A stretch of DNA of 56,881 bases, taken from Succinivibrio dextrinosolvens DSM 3072 (GTDB lineage: Bacteria > Pseudomonadota > Gammaproteobacteria > Enterobacterales > Succinivibrionaceae). Each line of letters opens with the position of its first letter. Positions within the stretch are counted from its first letter, which is position 1. Shown here piece by piece: positions 27,502 through 36,710 of this stretch. Below the pieces are notes generated by a model, which had not been told where the DNA came from, searched no databases, and saw nothing but the letters and a program-made list of their open reading frames with translations. A program made the translations under genes and the position numbers. The stretch lies in contig NZ_FUXX01000013.1 in NCBI RefSeq assembly GCF_900167015.1, forward strand, positions 1-56,881, in the 5' to 3' direction.

Positions 27502-30500
27502 TTAGGCAAAGCTGTCGATTAACATTGGAATTGCATACTTGATGAGCTTTCCAGTGCCAAGATTTTCCACTGCCTGAGAACGCTTATCCGAAAGAACTTC
27601 TGCCATGCAGTCGAGGAAGTCGTCGTAGTCTTTTGCACCTTTTGCACTATTTCGGGCTTTTTCTGCAATATCGTCAATGTCCTGTGCAATTACTCCCTTG
27701 AACTGCTCGAAGAATCCATCAAAGATATCTTTTGCACTGCGGTTCACAGACTCAAGCTCACGGGTTATCATCTCACGGTAAGCCTGATTTTCAGCCTCCT
27801 TTGCAGGATCTACTTCTGTTCCTGGTTCAGGAATTTTCTTTAAAAGAGCTTCAATGTTAGTTCTGCGGTCAACGCACTGCTGATACTGATCAAACATGAC
27901 CTTGAGATCATCATGTCCATCAAGATGCGACTTTATCGTTTCATCAACCTCAGTGTCTGATTTTTTCTTATCGAAAAGATCAAGAATGTACTGTCTGTAT
28001 TCTGGACCATTGACCTCCTTCTTGGCAGTAGTACAGAATCTGTTGATCAGTTTAAGTCTGGTCTTTTCATCTCTAGTATTGTCAGCACCAATGTTATACA
28101 CAAGGATTGATACTGGATCCTGATTCCTTATTTTCACATTTGCGGCTGCAATTCGCATTGCATTGTAGGTATCCTTCAGGGCTTTGTTAAGCTCCTCAAT
28201 AGCGTTGTTCAGTGCTATCTGACACTTACTGAAGTTATAGATTGGCGCAGGCATTTCCACACCTAGCTTCAGAACTTCCTGCAGTGCAACAAGAATTCTG
28301 GCACCGGCATCCTTTCTGCTGCCCTTTGATAGCACTGCACTTAACACAGCCTTCATGCGATCCTTTACCAGAGGCGAGTTAGGATCATTCTTATCTACAT
28401 GTTCATTTAGTCTGGCCTTACTGGTATCAGAGAGCAGCGCTGTTAGAGATTCAATAAAAGCAGAGCTGTCTGAGTACATGGCAGCTGCCATCATTTTGGT
28501 AATATGCAACTGCTGATCTGGAGTAAGCTGCGTACAGTTACCAAAATCAATGATTGTAAGCTGATCAGGAGAGGTCATGATATTTCCAGCATGCAGGTCT
28601 CCATGGTAGAAGCCCTTGCCAAAAATACCTTCACTAACCCAGTTTTTGGTGAAGGACATCAGATTCTGCTGCTGTTTCAGAAGGAACTGATACTGCTCAG
28701 AAAGCTTATTATATTTATCCAGCGAAACCTTGTAGTCCCGATGCAGGAATTTATCGGTTACCTCTCCACTGTATTTATATATTTCCAGATCCTCAACACC
28801 GTTAAACTCGTGGGTAAATGGCTTCAAATGCTGCTTAACGATTTCATTGGCATCACGTATACATTTATCAAGAGTTACACCAGGGGCAAGATCAAGCACC
28901 ATCACATCAGTGGTAGGACGGACCAGAGGACTTAGAGTCATGCTCTTAACCTTGGTGGAATTGTTACTGTAGATCTGACCTGACTCTACGTTGTTTGCCT
29001 CCACGGTAAGATCAAGCTCTTCAAGAATGGTCTTAAGATCACCTGCAAAGGTAACATCCATTCCAGGAACCTTCTTCGCAGCCTCAGTGAAGATCTTCTT
29101 TTCTCGCTCAGCTCGATTCTGAACGTCTGGTCTTAGGAACTTAACCACCTTTTCCACACCTTCAGGGTGATCTTTGGTAAAGAATTTACACAGTACAGCC
29201 TGGCCGACTGAAGCTGCACCTAAGGACCTGACTACGCTGATCTTTGAGATTTCTCCATTTGAGGAATTCACAATCTCAAGAAGATGAGCCTGAATGATAC
29301 GATCTGGTATAGGAGCCAGATTACACTTCATATCCGCAAAGGCTGTCTTAAGCTCGTCAGTCAGTGCATCAGGAGGAAGTCTCTGCAGAATCTTCTGCAT
29401 GATAGGACCTGCACCCTTGAACATTGCGCCAAGTATCTGTGCTGGAGATGAATCAGAATTGGAGTAGCGGACCATGGAAGCAAGCATATTTCGTCTGTCA
29501 ATGGCACTCATATCCTTGAAATAGGTCTTCATAACCTCTCCAATGAACTGCCCCAGAGCGGTCTTGTTAAAGGAGCTGTTGCCTTCATCCTGCAGCTGTT
29601 TTAAGGTTACGTTCTTGTTGGTAGGATCAAGAGGAGCTTTCTCTTCGCCTTCAGGCTTTAGAGCTTCATTGAACCTTTCCGCAATATCATTGCCAATAAT
29701 CTGAGCCTGATTGTCAATCTCCTGGTTAAGTGAAATTTCTGCATTACCTATGACCTCCCACAGTTCATCGTCAGGATTCTTGAGAAGTTCTTCCAGTTTA
29801 TTCCTCAGCATTATCTGCTGTAACCCCATCTTATAGGAGCCTGGCTGTGCCAGCATAAATGGCTCCTTAATCTCCACTTTCTCATCGCCATAGGCATTCT
29901 CTGCCATTTCAACATAGTGGTTTGGCTTGAATTCATGCAGATAACCTTTATTATCCATGGCAACGATAATCTCTTTTACCAGCTGCAGTGGAAGCAGTTT
30001 ATTTTTTATAATCTCTTTTAAGTTTTCATCATTTGGAGTATCAACCTTCTTAAACGGCTCCTTTAGAGTAAATTCCTCCTTTTTAAGGTCAGCAGTTATT
30101 AGGCTGAATAGTTTATTTGCCTCAGCATTATCTATTTTTTTGCTGCCTGACAGCTCTGACACAAGACTCAAAATGAGATCTAATGGCAGCATCCTGTTAT
30201 TAAAGATGTGATTAACAAGATCAACATAGTTCTTTTGGGTTACAGGATCCTGAATATTAAGCTGCTGCATCAGAGGTGAGTCGAATACCTGATCAATAAT
30301 TTCCTGAACATCAGGAAGTCTTTCTCCTCCTAAAGGAGGCTCATTAACCCCTTCCAACTGATCAAGCAGCAGATGTCCACGGAGATCTCCAAGTGCGGAT
30401 CCTAGCGCTTTTCTTACATTCTCAGGAAGAGTATTGATGGCATCTGGATCTGATACAAGTCTGTTGAAGGTTTCGATATGATCAAGGATAGTGTTCACAA

Positions 30501-33414
30501 TTCTGGTGCCGGGTTTGGCATTAGGATTGTCTATTATCGAGTCATACTTGCTGCCGTCATAATTTAAGATCAGATCAGCAAAGAAATTATGAACCTTCTC
30601 ATCTTCAAGCTTTTTCTCAAATTTCTGCTGTTTCTCAATTGCAGGTTTTTCATTAGAAGCTGCTCTACTGTAGGTACTGGTACGTTTATAGTATTCATTA
30701 GCTTCATAAGAAATATTTTTATATAATTGACTCTGCTTGTCCAGACCTTCTTTCTTCAGGTATAAAGGCTCAAGACCATCTCTGCTTTGAGGAGAAATCT
30801 TCAGCATTAAATCTGCTATTCTTTTTATTGCAAGCTCAAATTGAGCTTTAAGCTCAGGAACAACATTACCTTCCTCATTGGATAGAAGTCCCCTGTAGAG
30901 CTTTAATCTGTCCTCCTGAGACATAGAAAGCAGATAATCGGTACCAACCTTGTTTTCCGTTCTGAATATACCGGGAATGTTTCCCCTCATAAACAGGAAA
31001 ACTGCATAGGAGAAGGTATTCTTCATATTACTTTCATATTCAGCCTCTGTTGGCTTACAGAGAATCAATCTGTCAAACATCAGGAGGTTATTAGAGATGA
31101 TCTCCTTTAGATTTTCAGCTGTAATTGTAGATTCGCCTTTTGCTATGTCCTTTTGCATTACCTCTTCGATCTTGTCGGTAAACTCATGAGCCTGAAGAGC
31201 ATAGCTTAATGACTTCATATGCTTAAATATATACTTACATCTTTTGAACTCCTTAAGCTCTTCCGGAGTAAGGTTTGCTGTATCCTTATTCGGATCAAAG
31301 CCATTTTGAACCTTGTCTAAAACCAGCTTTAATTCCTCGACACTATTAATTTTCTCAACTCTTTTCGGCTCAACTTGATTACATAAGAAATAAGAAAATT
31401 TCTGTGCAAACGAGCCAAGATTTGACAGCTTCTCTTTTGCAGAAGAAATCTCCTTCGTTACACTTTCACCATATTCTTTATCTCTGAATCTGAACATGAG
31501 CTCTGCATGATTGGATAGAATCTTTACTCCCTGCATCATTGTCTCCTGTCGTTTATTCTCATCAGGGACAATTTTATCAAGTTCATCTGCAACAACCTGA
31601 AGCTCTGCCACATCCAGTACCTTCTGAGCCTGCTGCTGAGGTATGGTTAGGGGAACCTTGAAATCAGGATTGGTCTTTGCAATTTCTGATAAGAGTGCAT
31701 TAACCGATGGTGACAGAGATTCTAGGCAGGCCTTATCAGCATAAATCAGCTTCAGATTTTCACTGTTCTTTTCAAGAATATCTTTAAGATCATTGATAGA
31801 TGTTTTTCGTTTAGCTGTAAGTTCTGAGAACAGCTGCTTAGAGAAAAGCAGAGTTTTTTTCTGCAGACTGTTATCAAGGCTCTGTTCAATTTCCTTAAAG
31901 TCAGTTTCCATCTTCTGAAGGAAGGTTTTATAAAGAGGATTCTCAGCCTCTTTTTTAAAACCGAAAAAGTTAATCTTAAGGGTTTTGTCAGGCATTTTGA
32001 ATTCATTTCTGATAAGCAGCTCAGTCTTAAGATTGTTGTTCTGACAGTAGTCAATCAGTTTCTTTATCTGACTCATCGCAGGTTCTTTTATTTCATTCAG
32101 AAGACCTCGATTGGCTATCAGATGAGCTAGAACGCGAGCTTCTGAATACATGATCTCGGCTAAGGCAGTACCAAGAGCTTTCTGATCAGTATTTAGGGAA
32201 TAGAGTTTACGGCAGAGGCTGTCAATCTCGTTATAGATGCTTAAATCACGGGCAAGATTATTAGTCTTATCAACCTGATCATGGACGTCTTGAAGAGCTT
32301 CTCTAGTCTTATTCTCCGCGTCCGCAATTTCCTGCCTGTTTATCTCACGCTGCTCTTTTATCTGATTCTGTTTCTCAAGATCAAGATTCTTGACATCAAC
32401 CTTGTTTTCAAGCTGATTCTTGTCTTCCTTATCAAGCTTTGCCAAAAGCTCTGTGGTCATCAGAGAGTTGATTTTATCCTGCTTTTCACCCGGTTGATTC
32501 TGCTCTGCAAATCTAGTCAAAAGCTGTTTTACAGCCTCCTGAGCCTTGTTTTTATCTCCAAGATTTTCTAGAACAGCCAGAGCACAGTTACGCACTGTCT
32601 CTGTAGGCATCATAGTGAAATCTACATTGGCAAACAGAGTCTGAGCTGAGATAAGTTTGATATACAGTGTTCTGGTACGGCTGTTCTCATCAAGCTGAGG
32701 AGCTTCATCAAGTTCTATATCCTCATCCAGAGGTATTTCTGCAGCGTCGATGGTATTCTGGACAGCATCCTTACCATACAGGGAAGGATGGCTTATGATA
32801 TCGTCCTCTAGCTGAGCTCTAAGCTGAGCTGCTGTCAGAGGCAGCTCGAATGTAACCTTATTATTACCTTCCTCAAAGGTTGCAAAAAGCTTGTTATCTG
32901 AGTCCTGTCTTAATTTAACTCTATTACCACCGATGATAAAGGTCTGCTCAAAATCCTCTCGATTAGGGAAGGTCTTAAGACCTGCCTGTAAGTTCTTTAC
33001 TCCTTTTCTAATCTCGTCTGCTTCTCTCTTGTTTTTCATAGACAGGGCTGCATCATCAATATCATGCTCTCCACTGAACACAAAATAGCCGATACCAAAT
33101 GTCAGCACGGTAATCAGTTTTTCAAAGAAAGAGAAATGAGATTTCTTTGGAACCAGCTTCTCTTCTATCTGGGCAGATAGCTTTTCAGGATTCTTCAGGA
33201 TCAGTTCTGCTGTTTTCTTTGGTTCAGCCAGAGACTCCTTGATCATAGGAATTTTTATAATCTCAAAATCATTCCCCCCCTCCTGCTGACCATTCTGATT
33301 TTCAGCAGGTATATTGTTTGGGTTATCATTTATATCGTTCTGATTTAAATTTCCGTTAATCAGAGGATTGTTGATATTCTGACCGAAGTTATTTCCGTTG
33401 ATCTGATGACTCAT
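27502..33414 (-). CDS. Giant (1970-aa) protein with ABC1/UbiB-type kinase domain
   Basis: Residues 1-50 are Asn/Gln-rich. A hydrophobic segment (about 94-114) follows; residues about 120-1300 are charged, helical and unrecognised. The ABC1 (UbiB/ADCK) kinase-like domain spans about 1320-1720. It has a KxGQ-like element (MFKGAGPIMQK then LPPD, about 1333), the Ala-rich loop LGAASVGQ (about 1401), VVKFLRP with the ATP-site Lys (about 1427), ELDLTVEANN, the catalytic loop HGDLHAGNI (about 1605) and IDFGN (about 1622). A further 250 residues of helical C-terminus follow. Ordinary UbiB proteins are about 540 aa and act in ubiquinone synthesis; this one is neither the right size nor in a ubi cluster. 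AGGAG precedes the ATG. It is flanked by an IS and tRNA-Pro repeats, suggesting acquisition by transfer. Confidence 0.8.
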   Translation of the reverse strand: MSHQINGNNFGQNINNPLINGNLNQNDINDNPNNIPAENQNGQQEGGNDFEIIKIPMIKESLAEPKKTAELILKNPEKLSAQIEEKLVPKKSHFSFFEKLITVLTFGIGYFVFSGEHDIDDAALSMKNKREADEIRKGVKNLQAGLKTFPNREDFEQTFIIGGNRVKLRQDSDNKLFATFEEGNNKVTFELPLTAAQLRAQLEDDIISHPSLYGKDAVQNTIDAAEIPLDEDIELDEAPQLDENSRTRTLYIKLISAQTLFANVDFTMMPTETVRNCALAVLENLGDKNKAQEAVKQLLTRFAEQNQPGEKQDKINSLMTTELLAKLDKEDKNQLENKVDVKNLDLEKQNQIKEQREINRQEIADAENKTREALQDVHDQVDKTNNLARDLSIYNEIDSLCRKLYSLNTDQKALGTALAEIMYSEARVLAHLIANRGLLNEIKEPAMSQIKKLIDYCQNNNLKTELLIRNEFKMPDKTLKINFFGFKKEAENPLYKTFLQKMETDFKEIEQSLDNSLQKKTLLFSKQLFSELTAKRKTSINDLKDILEKNSENLKLIYADKACLESLSPSVNALLSEIAKTNPDFKVPLTIPQQQAQKVLDVAELQVVADELDKIVPDENKRQETMMQGVKILSNHAELMFRFRDKEYGESVTKEISSAKEKLSNLGSFAQKFSYFLCNQVEPKRVEKINSVEELKLVLDKVQNGFDPNKDTANLTPEELKEFKRCKYIFKHMKSLSYALQAHEFTDKIEEVMQKDIAKGESTITAENLKEIISNNLLMFDRLILCKPTEAEYESNMKNTFSYAVFLFMRGNIPGIFRTENKVGTDYLLSMSQEDRLKLYRGLLSNEEGNVVPELKAQFELAIKRIADLMLKISPQSRDGLEPLYLKKEGLDKQSQLYKNISYEANEYYKRTSTYSRAASNEKPAIEKQQKFEKKLEDEKVHNFFADLILNYDGSKYDSIIDNPNAKPGTRIVNTILDHIETFNRLVSDPDAINTLPENVRKALGSALGDLRGHLLLDQLEGVNEPPLGGERLPDVQEIIDQVFDSPLMQQLNIQDPVTQKNYVDLVNHIFNNRMLPLDLILSLVSELSGSKKIDNAEANKLFSLITADLKKEEFTLKEPFKKVDTPNDENLKEIIKNKLLPLQLVKEIIVAMDNKGYLHEFKPNHYVEMAENAYGDEKVEIKEPFMLAQPGSYKMGLQQIMLRNKLEELLKNPDDELWEVIGNAEISLNQEIDNQAQIIGNDIAERFNEALKPEGEEKAPLDPTNKNVTLKQLQDEGNSSFNKTALGQFIGEVMKTYFKDMSAIDRRNMLASMVRYSNSDSSPAQILGAMFKGAGPIMQKILQRLPPDALTDELKTAFADMKCNLAPIPDRIIQAHLLEIVNSSNGEISKISVVRSLGAASVGQAVLCKFFTKDHPEGVEKVVKFLRPDVQNRAEREKKIFTEAAKKVPGMDVTFAGDLKTILEELDLTVEANNVESGQIYSNNSTKVKSMTLSPLVRPTTDVMVLDLAPGVTLDKCIRDANEIVKQHLKPFTHEFNGVEDLEIYKYSGEVTDKFLHRDYKVSLDKYNKLSEQYQFLLKQQQNLMSFTKNWVSEGIFGKGFYHGDLHAGNIMTSPDQLTIIDFGNCTQLTPDQQLHITKMMAAAMYSDSSAFIESLTALLSDTSKARLNEHVDKNDPNSPLVKDRMKAVLSAVLSKGSRKDAGARILVALQEVLKLGVEMPAPIYNFSKCQIALNNAIEELNKALKDTYNAMRIAAANVKIRNQDPVSILVYNIGADNTRDEKTRLKLINRFCTTAKKEVNGPEYRQYILDLFDKKKSDTEVDETIKSHLDGHDDLKVMFDQYQQCVDRRTNIEALLKKIPEPGTEVDPAKEAENQAYREMITRELESVNRSAKDIFDGFFEQFKGVIAQDIDDIAEKARNSAKGAKDYDDFLDCMAEVLSDKRSQAVENLGTGKLIKYAIPMLIDSFA

Positions 33415-33851: not shown

Positions 33852-33928
<77 letters not shown>

Positions 33929-33967
33929 TTTAAAATTCAAATAGAGATTACATCTCATCATAAAAGT

Positions 33968-34044
<77 letters not shown>

Positions 34045-35040
34045 CTCTCAGAAACATCCAATACTAAAAAAACACAAAATAAAGATTTAGCATACATATT
34101 TGTTGTGTCATTTGCTTTGTGTATATCTGACATCAAAAACACTCATCTTTAAACAACAAAAAAAGATCCAAACAGATTTTTGCCAGAAGCCAGAGAGAAA
34201 AAAGACCGGTAGGGGAGAAAGTTTTAAGATAACTGTAATTATCCGTACAAAAAGCTCATCCCTTGGATCAATAAATTATACACAGAAAAGTAATCTAAAA
34301 ATCCTCCAGGATTAACGCAAAACAATATAACCACCCATTACAAGTAAAATACTAAAAAACTCAATCCTAGAGCATTCTCGTGCAAGATCTATAAAACACA
34401 TAAAGATTATTTTATTCTTGGAAGTTATTTATTACTTCATAATTAATAACAATTATGTATTTATTACTTTTAAGAACAGAATAAAGCGATAATACATTAT
34501 TATTTATCTTTAATTACATTTGTAATGTTATTGATTATTTTATATAACAGCAAACTTATCGTCTTTTTTAGACAAAAGCTCCCTTATTTTCATAAAACTG
34601 ATTTATCATCTTAATTCTGTAATTTAATTTCATTTCAATAATTACATTTTTGTAATTCTAATTACATTGATTTAATTTATGAAAATTCCCATTATTGATC
34701 AATAATTATATATTGATATTAAGTTATATATAATAACTCGGTTTATAGATTAAAGATTTTATATTTCAGTATGTTATTAATTATTTACAATATTCATACT
34801 CATAAATATATCTTTCATATATACCGTTTTTCAAATCATATTATCACTTACATTTAGATGTAATTTTTCAACTTTATATAACAACTCTTCCCTATCTTTC
34901 TTCATATTTTTTACAAAATCAGTCTTAGGCTAAAAATACGCTGGTTTATTTATGTAAAGTTAATCTTAAATACAGAGCTAAAAATTCTCTAAAAATATAT
35001 AGTTATTCACATTTTTAATCTTCGATATTAAGGAGAAATA
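34045..35040. other. Long, very AT-rich non-coding interval
   Basis: About 1 kb without a credible gene; a 71-codon frame at 34100-34315 has no ribosome site or recognisable protein. Three inverted repeats of type TTACA-N(2-6)-TGTAA occur at 34514-34525, 34642-34655 and 34848-34863. They may be chance in such AT-rich DNA. Confidence 0.5.
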
Positions 35041-35148
35041 ATGTATACTGATAATGTGAACAGAGAAAAACGAGGATCGTTTTCTATTAGTTTTAAGATC
35101 TTGTTATTTATTACTGAAAAACAGGATCACTTACAGATAATCTCTTGA
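35041..35148 (+). CDS. Candidate 35-aa small protein
   Basis: The ATG is preceded by AAGGAG with a 5-base spacer. The frame encodes 35 residues: a polar start (MYTDNVNREKRGS), a hydrophobic middle (FSISFKILLFI) and a polar end. AATCTCTTGAGATT overlapping the stop, followed by a T8 run, could terminate it. No homologue is recognised. The region also carries two GGATC motifs, so it could instead be an RNA leader. Confidence 0.3.
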   Translation: MYTDNVNREKRGSFSISFKILLFITEKQDHLQIIS

Positions 35149-35165
35149 GATTTGAGTTTTTTTTA
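35135..35165 (+). terminator. Candidate terminator after the small ORF
   Basis: AATCTC-TT-GAGATT, whose stop-proximal stem overlaps the TGA, followed within four bases by a T8 run. Confidence 0.4.
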
Positions 35166-35182
35166 TTTACAGATTTTATATA

Positions 35183-35208
35183 AAAAAAGTTCAGTAAATC
35201 TGAACTGA
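35183..35208 (-). terminator. Minus-strand intrinsic terminator
   Basis: On the minus strand GTTCAG-ATTTA-CTGAAC is followed by TTTTTTTATAT. No minus-strand protein gene lies immediately upstream, so it implies an unannotated minus transcript or a backup stop. Confidence 0.5.
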
Positions 35209-35233
35209 GAATGGTAGAAAACTACTACAGCAA

Positions 35234-35276
35234 AAAAGGATCAGAGGCTACAGTAAAATGTAGCCTCTGATCTTTT
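35234..35276. terminator. Strong bidirectional terminator hairpin
   Basis: GATCAGAGGCTACA (35239-35252) pairs with TGTAGCCTCTGATC (35259-35272). A-rich sequence lies before it and TTTT after; on the minus strand it is followed by CTTTTTTG. The plus-strand GGATCA motif lies in the 5' arm. Confidence 0.8.
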
Positions 35277-35329
35277 ATAAGCATGAATGATCTTCTCTAC
35301 AACAATGCCCTCTCCTTTATTTTTTAATT

Positions 35330-35650
35330 CTCATACAGTGATACTGAAAGAAAGGACCGGATCATTCGTTATAGACTGTTCTGCACAGGATCAATCCCCT
35401 CAGTATCATTTCCAGAGGATCATCTTTCCTATTTTCCAATGATACTTCCCTATTCTCCTGCACATACTGAGGTTTCTTTAATATGGACCTGTAGCCATAT
35501 TCATACATCTTTTTACGTCTATAGATACATATGCAATCAGGAGCATCTGCATATACTTAAACAGGATCAATTGTAAAAGAGGATCAATCACAGATGCATT
35601 TATGCAGGATCAATTAAAGGCAGGATCAAAAAAAATCCCTCAAGGATGGA
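35330..35650 (+). ncRNA. Candidate CsrA/RsmA-sponge RNA (CsrB-like), extent approximate
   Basis: A non-coding stretch with about a dozen GGA motifs on the plus strand. They include CAGGATCA at 35387, 35562, 35605 and 35621, and GAGGATCA near 35415 and 35579. CCGGATCA occurs near 35358 and CAGGAG at 35538; the reverse complement TGATCC is absent. Several sit in predicted hairpin loops: ATATGCA (35529-35535) / TGCATAT (35548-35554) exposes CAGGAG, AGTATCATT (35402) / AATGATACT (35438) exposes GAGGATCA, and TGATACTGA / TCAGTATCA exposes two more. CsrB RNAs carry repeated CAGGA(U/A/C)G in loops. Promoter and 3' end are unresolved. Confidence 0.4.
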
Positions 35651-35664
35651 GCGTCCTCGAGGGA
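35631..35664 (-). terminator. Terminator of zapC
   Basis: On the minus strand CCCTC.AGGA / TCCT.GAGGG forms a stem followed by ATTTTTTTGAT, about 60 bp after the zapC stop. A second small hairpin TCTTAAC-taac-GTTAAGA lies between them (35673-35690). Confidence 0.7.
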
Positions 35665-35718
35665 GAGAATGGTCTTAACTAACGTTAAGAACTACAGCAA
35701 ATTAGGAGAAAAAATTCT

Positions 35719-36282
35719 TTAAGCGTATCTAACACGACGATCATTTGAGCCAGAATAAATATCGCCAATGCACTCTGGACATACTCTGATCATCATTCCA
35801 ATCTGATATCCTCTATTCTGTTCCTTATCTAAGACCAGCTCCTCTGATAGAAGCATCAGTCTTACCATACCGTCAGCATCTATTTCTTCAAGAACCAGGC
35901 AATAACCTGCTGAACCGGCCTTTGAGTAAACTATTACTACATCTCCCCTTGCAAACTCTACAGCAGGACGATCAAGAGCTAAAAAGTATCTGCTGGTTGG
36001 AGCTGCTGGTCTTGTAAACTTCTCGCATGCAACTGCATTAAGTCCAAGATCAAGGGCAAAACTTTCATTCTTTAAAATTTCATATAAACCATCCTGGTAA
36101 TCAGTCAGAAGATTTGCATCATCTATACAGAACTGACTGTTACTCTCAGGGCGGACAAACAAATCTTCAACGTTGTACCTTGTTTTAAACAGGTAGGACT
36201 TACCTTCATCGGTTGTAAGATTGATACTTAACTTTCCGTCATGATAAGTCCATGTACAATCATTCTGAGGGCTAATAACCAT
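35719..36282 (-). CDS. zapC: Cell-division protein ZapC-like
   Basis: 187 aa, divergent but alignable with E. coli ZapC, a cytoplasmic FtsZ-bundling factor at the division ring. Seen are WTYHDGKLSINL near the N-terminus, FKTRYNVEDL, the best-conserved FCIDDANLL (residues 51-59; E. coli FCVDDAALY), and LNAVACEKFTRPAAPTSRYF (E. coli [20 protein letters not shown]). The gene lies next to pyrD, as in E. coli, which supports the call. No signal peptide is present. Its ATG has AAGGA about 12-14 bases upstream. Confidence 0.8.
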   Translation of the reverse strand: MVISPQNDCTWTYHDGKLSINLTTDEGKSYLFKTRYNVEDLFVRPESNSQFCIDDANLLTDYQDGLYEILKNESFALDLGLNAVACEKFTRPAAPTSRYFLALDRPAVEFARGDVVIVYSKAGSAGYCLVLEEIDADGMVRLMLLSEELVLDKEQNRGYQIGMMIRVCPECIGDIYSGSNDRRVRYA

Positions 36283-36672
36283 CTGTTTTTGCTGTCCTTA
36301 TTCAGTTTTCTGAAATTTGTAATTCATTTTCATTTTAGCCTATAAACTGAAGAAAATAAACTAAATGAAAAATAAAAAATGTTTTATTTGTCAATAACTG
36401 ATCTGTCTATCACATTTTCAGTTATTTTTATTTGTAAATGTCAATAGCTTCTAGAGCATTTTTTTCAATGTTTAAATATTACTTAAAAAAAATTATATTA
36501 GTCTTATACAGTCATTATTATTATGAGAGTCTGTATTATTATTTATATGATTATTTGTGAATTAGCTTAAACTTATTTGTAAATTAGATTAAATGCAGAA
36601 TAAAGCAGCAGATAATAATATTTCTATTGGACGTGATTATTAGTTTTAGAAAAAAAGAGAACGTGAAAAACT
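36283..36672. other. AT-rich spacer between zapC and pyrD
   Basis: About 390 bp with no gene or repeat that I can support. It presumably holds the zapC promoter; no close sigma-70 consensus stands out in the A/T-rich sequence. Confidence 0.45.
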
Positions 36673-36710
36673 AAAAAAAGCTTCACTGCCCTCTCAGGTT
36701 GTGAAGCTTT
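36673..36710 (-). terminator. Terminator of pyrD
   Basis: On the minus strand AAAGCTTCAC / GTGAAGCTTT with a 14-nt loop, followed by a T-run. It separates pyrD from zapC transcription. Confidence 0.85.

Follow-up and report, generated by a model that had tools for sequence, protein, structure and literature searches.

RNAs of the CsrB, CsrC and RsmX/Y/Z type carry many GGA motifs, mostly within hairpin loops or elsewhere in single-stranded sequence; CsrB and RsmZ RNAs are under the transcriptional control of BarA-UvrY (GacS-GacA) and end with a Rho-independent terminator. In SELEX experiments, GGA was 100% conserved under selection by CsrA, as stated in the available text of PMC7652899. Another short RNA word, GAUCA at the 3′ end of 16S rRNA, is recognised by the KH domain of Era (available text of PMC10582724), and a small RNA can also be accompanied by a cis-encoded antagonist (available text of PMC8687705). 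The locus described here, a series of GGATCA words beside zapC in Succinivibrio dextrinosolvens, was originally predicted to encode a lineage-specific sponge RNA of the CsrB/RsmZ type. It resembles these RNAs in having many short same-strand sites at one intergenic locus, in the occurrence of CAGGA at many units and in the presence of csrA in the genome. Unlike them, it has an RGATCA core and no excess structure, and it lacks a plus-strand Rfam match, a close UvrY match and a listed plus-strand terminator. Literature searches for small RNAs and CsrA of Succinivibrio or Succinivibrionaceae, for a zapC sRNA and for Csr or GGAUCA sponges did not return the locus among the matches listed.

The array and its flanking sRNA-like modules

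The window, i.e., the whole stretch of 56,881 nucleotides that was analysed, is the entire contig C53 of the S. dextrinosolvens DSM 3072 genome (2.67 Mb, 97% complete), and a search of a plasmid collection gave 0 matches. The array stretch lies in an intergenic region, about 1.7 kb long, that separates two tRNA-Pro genes (plus strand, 33852-34044) from zapC (minus strand, 35719-36282). The zapC product contains a ZapC_N domain (Pfam PF21083, 38.7 bits against a cut-off of 27) and is 96% identical to that of Succinivibrio dextrinosolvens ACV-10 and 95% identical to that of an uncultured Succinatimonas isolate. The array itself (35359-35628, plus strand) is composed of seven GGATCA units, located at 35359-35364, 35388-35393, 35417-35422, 35564-35569, 35581-35586, 35607-35612 and 35623-35628. 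The predicted strand bias was borne out, with seven exact GGATCA on the plus strand of 35330-35650 and none on the minus strand; reading of the same segment gave 12 GGA, matching the dozen or so anticipated, and it does look non-coding, the longest listed ORF inside being 51 aa long and free of Pfam matches. Two more GGATCA words, at 35124 and 35238, fall outside this segment and are likewise on the plus strand; the former (35124-35129) is surrounded by AACAGGATCA, which is identical in genomes G000, G004, G010 and G014.

The enrichment was assessed on a stretch of 334 bases, which counts six units because the seventh touches its cut edge. RGATCA occurs there six times on the plus strand and never on the minus strand. 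The expectation is 0.67, and none of 1000 dinucleotide shuffles contained as many as six. An exact pattern of three GGATCA separated by gaps of 4-34 has its sole occurrence in this genome at the array locus. Across the whole window GGATCA is also in excess (54 vs 33.7 in shuffles), probably in part because of codon use; in a 340-kb sample the antisense strand of ORFs carries the word at roughly double the density of the sense strand (98 vs 50). This sample of 340,326 bases, about 13% of the genome, comprised the window without the array and 15 further stretches, five stretches shorter than 4 kb having been dropped. A regulon marked by GGATCA at gene starts was sought in it and rejected: for 271 ORFs of at least 100 aa, the 7,569 sense positions upstream contained a single GGATCA, which is no enrichment, with the proviso that the ORFs come from a simple script and rare targets may be missed.

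The array is flanked by two sRNA-like modules that are useful in their own right. The first, sRNA1 (35628-35713, minus strand), lies just 3′ of zapC, with a match of the covariance model R1 at 35626-35700. It is built of TTTGCTGTAG, a TTCTTAAC/GTTAAGA hairpin, CCATTCTC and a terminator-like hairpin with a GCTCCAT loop and a T-run; written as RNA, the order reads UUUGCUGUAG, hairpin, CCAUUCUC and terminator-like hairpin with a GCUCCAU loop. This module of about 85 bases, not the array, is the best conserved piece of the locus. It is present in 19/19 matched loci, its T-run (6 or more T on the minus strand) is kept in all 19, and its 5′ half is near-invariant over 17 aligned genomes. R1 matched 14 of 39 family genomes, with a zapC match alongside in five of the six loci looked at. 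The module may be a 3′-UTR-derived sRNA. Neither module has an Rfam match at gathering score.

The second module, sRNA2 (35188-35276), lies to the left of the array and is a sibling of sRNA1 with the same boxes and unrelated stems: a hairpin, TTTGCTGTAG, a small hairpin, CCATTCTC and a terminator-like hairpin with a T-run. A text pattern found it in 11 of the 19 loci. Its assignment to the minus strand is provisional because the 14-bp hairpin at 35239-35272, listed by the terminator scan on the minus strand only, is followed by T-rich sequence on the plus strand too (TTTTATA); this hairpin, which separates the left block from the array, is possibly a bidirectional terminator. In four sister species, little sequence is conserved in the right flank of sRNA2. 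Farther left, a candidate plus-strand promoter block (34989-35049) is composed of TAAAAATATATAGTTATTCACA, with a CRP-like half site, and AATAATGTATACT, and it is conserved in the alignment of the four sister species. A −10-like TATACT lies at 35044-35049 within the AATAATGTATACT part, and the promoter scan lists TCGATA-16-TATACT at 35022-35049, the scan total of 12 being not above the 16.0 obtained in shuffles. Downstream of the block, the unit at 35124 is conserved in all four sister species, and a second in-register GATC belongs to a full RGATCA unit in three of them but to GGATCG in this genome.

Distribution of the array and turnover of its spacers

A DNA search with 34950-35720 against 60 genomes matched 19 of them, the own genome included. 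Of the 19 genus genomes, 16 provided locus sequence for examination, whereas G003, G005 and G008 had no match in this search. An array beside zapC was found in eight of the 19 genus genomes (G000, G010, G014, G004, G002, G001, G012 and G011), in every case between the sRNA1 and sRNA2 modules. Both modules are present and no array is found in G009, G015 and G017, and the remaining eight matched loci contain 0 to 2 GGATCA per approximately 800 bases. On the ZapC tree the eight array genomes form one supported group of ten (98/99) together with G009 and G015. The array label, scored with three array-less rows, was not more clustered on this tree than shuffled labels; it needs three changes, no fewer than shuffled labels, and these may represent one gain and two losses.

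The 60 RGATCA units collected from the eight arrays (48 GGATCA and 12 AGATCA; 43 units without G011) all lie on the window's plus strand and yield the extended consensus YARGATCAAW. Since they were gathered with RGATCA as the seed, the invariance of GATCA in the consensus is by construction, and the independent evidence comes from a table of one-mismatch neighbours of GGATCAA. This table covers 10 genomes, of which three have no array, and leaves out G011 because its tandem copies would swamp the counts. Compared with 22 GGATCAA, the neighbours comprise nine AGATCAA (five from G001, partly from one tandem run), seven GGATCAT and three GGATCAG, with every other variant at 0 or 1. The first G tolerates A and TCA hardly varies; the kept core is RGATCA, not GGA. 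No RGATCA in reverse orientation occurs in the analysed stretches of the eight arrays, which cut off one unit and so count 59 rather than the 60 of the consensus set, and in each genome at most one of 1000 dinucleotide shuffles attained the observed RGATCA count. Unit spacing is free and shows no helical phase (Rayleigh p ~0.40 at 10.5 bp over 25 spacings, excluding G014, a near copy of G010, and spacings of at least 70, each tandem run being counted once). Sites for FNR and IHF were considered and rejected, as the unit flanks do not extend to the familiar consensus sequence of either protein.

The sequence between the units turns over. The ZapC protein of G000 shares 96% identity with its G004 counterpart and 95% with that of G010; the arrays of these three genomes, with seven, seven and five units, have common exact matches of only 10-12 bases. 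In the aligned arrays of G010 and G014, none of the 25 core positions differs, compared with one of the five R positions and 21 of the 398 positions in spacers. At the spacer rate only about 1.3 core changes would be expected, so that this comparison is weak alone, and the differences are consistent with constraint on the units without proving it. The persistence of units while the sequence between them is replaced is our main argument, and it suggests that the array is maintained by selection. The array is real, lineage-restricted and oriented, and it is probably selected.

One alternative holds that the array is a repeat expansion or a mobile-element residue without function. The arrays of G011 and G001 do contain tandem expansions with 16-bp and 14-bp steps, respectively, two members of the zapC group lack an array, and in relatives direct GGATCA repeats occur at a few ends that resemble those of mobile elements. 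Against this stand the spacers of other species, which are unrelated around an intact unit, and the one-mismatch neighbours, which mostly number 0 or 1. The ends of IS21 elements were surveyed at 23 of 54 model matches (one of the 23 without upstream sequence): several sense units were found at one end, in G001, and two antisense units at another. The array shares such direct repeats with the IS21-type end in G001; unlike that end, it lies on a contig, C53, that has no IS21-model match, the two matches of this genome being on C82 and C47. A mobile-element origin was rejected as a general explanation, direct GGATCA repeats not being general at the IS21 ends examined, and we consider a functionless repeat unlikely.

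Non-coding ARGATCAA/GGATCA clusters outside the zapC locus occur in a few relatives (G001, G009, G011, G004 and G002). The cluster of G001 (contig C39, L051) is made of four direct GGATCA repeats, mostly in 21-22-bp steps, upstream of an IS21-model match, and a similar sequence is found in G009 (contig C43, L054), where it is element-like by eye only. The G011 cluster lies upstream of an ORF and is also element-like by eye only. In G004, a multi-copy element-like stretch with AGGATCAATTGCCTATAGGCAGGATCAA occurs in four places, of which three were fetched (L070, L083 and L093), near contig ends, and the same stretch is present once in G011. G002 has one pair between two ORFs, which is not element-like. 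Among the subset of other ARGATCAA pairs examined in the genus outside the zapC locus, most lie inside open frames longer than 240 aa.

Comparison with Csr sponge RNAs

A sponge that titrates CsrA has several points in its favour. The genome contains csrA, whose absence had been named in advance as a ground for rejecting the idea: the gene product scores 56.1 bits against a cut-off of 27 and has arginine at residue 44, an important CsrA residue. CAGGA is common (29 vs 6 reversed in 11 genomes), and the layout of many short sites at one locus is sponge-like. The conservation of the unit nevertheless runs the wrong way. An A at the R position destroys GGA, and TCA is stricter than the first G, which is the reverse of the CsrA requirement. 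The dependence on GGA seen in CsrA selection is not reproduced, since the most frequent single-letter variant is AGATCAA and GGA lacking TCA is rarer than in shuffles (22 observed vs approximately 41 expected and 28 on the opposite strand, as sums over eight genomes).

Folding gives the same picture. The original prediction placed several GGA motifs in hairpin loops; when the analysed array was folded at minimum energy, none of its 10 GGA lay in a hairpin loop. Its specific example, an ATATGCA/TGCATAT hairpin with a GGAG loop, does fold in isolation (−5.2 kcal/mol, 43 nt), but the GGA of that loop is not part of a GGATCA unit. Over the eight array genomes, 0 of 69 GGA lie in hairpin loops (mean of the shuffle sum approximately 1.4), compared with 45 of 117 (shuffles approximately 6.6) in six CsrB control loci from other families processed with the same script; the tally refers to hairpin loops of the minimum-energy fold and leaves out GGA unpaired elsewhere. 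As zero is close to the 1.4 expected, the CsrB pattern is absent rather than avoided. Folding z-scores were −0.6 to +1.7 for the arrays of the eight genomes vs −2.9 to −6.0 for the controls, and no excess folding was detected on either strand of the arrays. The controls are six of the eight loci returned by the CsrB model search; the other two, L064 and L065, were below the gathering score and were not used.

Model searches were also negative for this family. Rfam, including the Csr and Rsm models, reported only tRNAs in the window at gathering scores, and within 34900-36350 no Csr family was matched on the plus strand at E values up to 10, the sole sub-threshold Csr match being CsrC on the minus strand (23.6 bits vs a gathering score of 61). 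The CsrB model matched 0 of 27 family genomes vs 10 of 18 genomes from other families of the order, under stricter filters that lose weak matches. Model NF007018 (PRK09483), which we take to represent UvrY, gave a best score of 55 bits over positions 1-105 of 217 against a cut-off of 280, i.e., no close match in a genome that is 97% complete. A simple scan of 34000-36700 listed three terminator-like sites, all on the minus strand, and none for a plus-strand array RNA. Core conservation, GGA counts, folding relative to controls, Rfam and the terminator scan led us to reject the Csr sponge as the lead reading, and the missing UvrY match is weaker counter-evidence; overall, we regard titration of CsrA by this locus as very unlikely. 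What survives of the predicted lineage-specific sponge is its restriction to a lineage, its strand orientation and its shared place in relatives, while the Csr part is not supported by the core, the folding, the Rfam and UvrY searches or the terminator scan.

Possible roles of the array

We tentatively prefer a reading in which the array would act as a flexible multi-site decoy, i.e., a plus-strand RNA without structure, on which numerous RGAUCA sites would hold a trans-acting RNA-binding factor other than CsrA as known. The reading builds on what was observed: the units have one orientation and one position, they are retained while their spacers are replaced, and there is no excess folding. 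That the array acts as a decoy, and that it has a partner of this kind, is what we infer. Further points in favour are the sole occurrence of the three-GGATCA pattern at this locus and the conservation of the promoter-like block, with one unit downstream, in four sister species. Strict orientation combined with free, unphased spacing fits a single-stranded site better than cooperating DNA sites and would favour a plus-strand RNA. Transcription would proceed on the plus strand, perhaps from the 34989-35049 block, and would have to pass the 35239-35272 hairpin, which could end such an RNA before the array. As no plus-strand terminator is listed in 34000-36700, the RNA would run antisense into sRNA1 and zapC. 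Several points count against the decoy: the lack of a target set, the array-less G009 and G015, the unclustered tree label, and the area left of sRNA2 in G011, where two RGATCA lie on the minus strand and none on the plus strand. The exact three-GGATCA pattern is not repeated elsewhere in this genome and GGATCA is not enriched at gene starts in the sample, so that a target set does not point to any partner.

The same conservation pattern might instead reflect a DNA-level array, in which oriented sites, reading TTGATCYT on the minus strand, would be bound by a DNA-binding protein between the zapC/sRNA1 terminator and sRNA2, where they could affect, e.g., sRNA2 transcription or act as a polar roadblock. 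Conserved units with unconserved spacers fit DNA sites as well as RNA sites, and the array sits between the two modules in all eight array genomes. In G000, G010, G014 and G004 a unit lies immediately next to the sRNA1 T-run, and the array-less G006 and G013 keep RGATCA there. Strict orientation with free, unphased spacing is, however, unusual for activator sites, and the flanks do not lead to an FNR or IHF site. The exact three-GGATCA pattern occurs nowhere else in the genome, so no regulon of such clusters is evident, and G009, G015 and G017 keep the module pair without the array. On balance, binding at the DNA level is possible and hardly less likely than the decoy.

The RGATCA words of the array-less species number one or two and lie directly beside the sRNA1 T-run (G013, L041; G006, L040); they are perhaps the seed of array growth.

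A third possibility places the function on the opposite strand: read-through from zapC and sRNA1 would produce a minus-strand RNA with repeated UUGAUCYU extending to the 35239-35272 hairpin and then sRNA2. This agrees with the scan, which lists terminator-like sites on the minus strand at either end of the array, with the sRNA1 T-run kept in 19/19 loci, and with the scarcely conserved right flank of sRNA2, expected if that module were cut from a longer transcript. On the other hand, the sRNA1 terminator should stop most read-through, and we identified no partner for UUGAUCYU. We consider a minus-strand element quite improbable.

Returning to the plus-strand decoy, its arrangement can be compared with that of a small RNA and its cis-encoded antagonist, reportedly exemplified by CJnc190/CJnc180 of Campylobacter. 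The putative array transcript would similarly overlap the sRNA-like modules in antisense; unlike the array, no motif array is described for that system in the available text of PMC8687705.

A more specific version of the decoy would have the array RNA mimic the GAUCA of 16S rRNA repeatedly and titrate Era or another reader of that end. The array core GATCA corresponds to GAUCA, which is the strictest part of the unit and is often preceded by G, and its sequence and lack of excess structure would fit a single-stranded GAUCA. In contrast to the 16S 3′ end, the units have no CCUCC after them and no helix 45 before them, and a five-letter match is weak. Era scored above the cut-off in 17 of the 19 genus genomes, which makes its presence uninformative. 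The literature matches listed included no sponge that copies the GAUCA of the 16S end to titrate Era. Given a match of only five letters and no CCUCC, we rate this version as highly improbable; if it were true, it would link a locus beside a division gene to ribosome maturation.

If the broader decoy reading were true, the locus would represent a sponge that relies on a different word from the GGA of Csr and turns over so quickly that nothing but the binding word is left, and homology searches would miss such RNAs. The unit consensus, together with the public stranded RNA-seq reads of S. dextrinosolvens Z6 (SRR11855358-SRR11855371, genome CP047056, PMC7507024), allows the strand and the partner to be tested in a rumen bacterium that is available in culture.

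Elsewhere in the window, the minus strand of 27502-33414 contains an open frame of 1970 aa with an ABC1 atypical kinase-like match (PF03109, E = 2.9e-15; best stretch at residues 1583-1655), an unusually large size for the ABC1 family.
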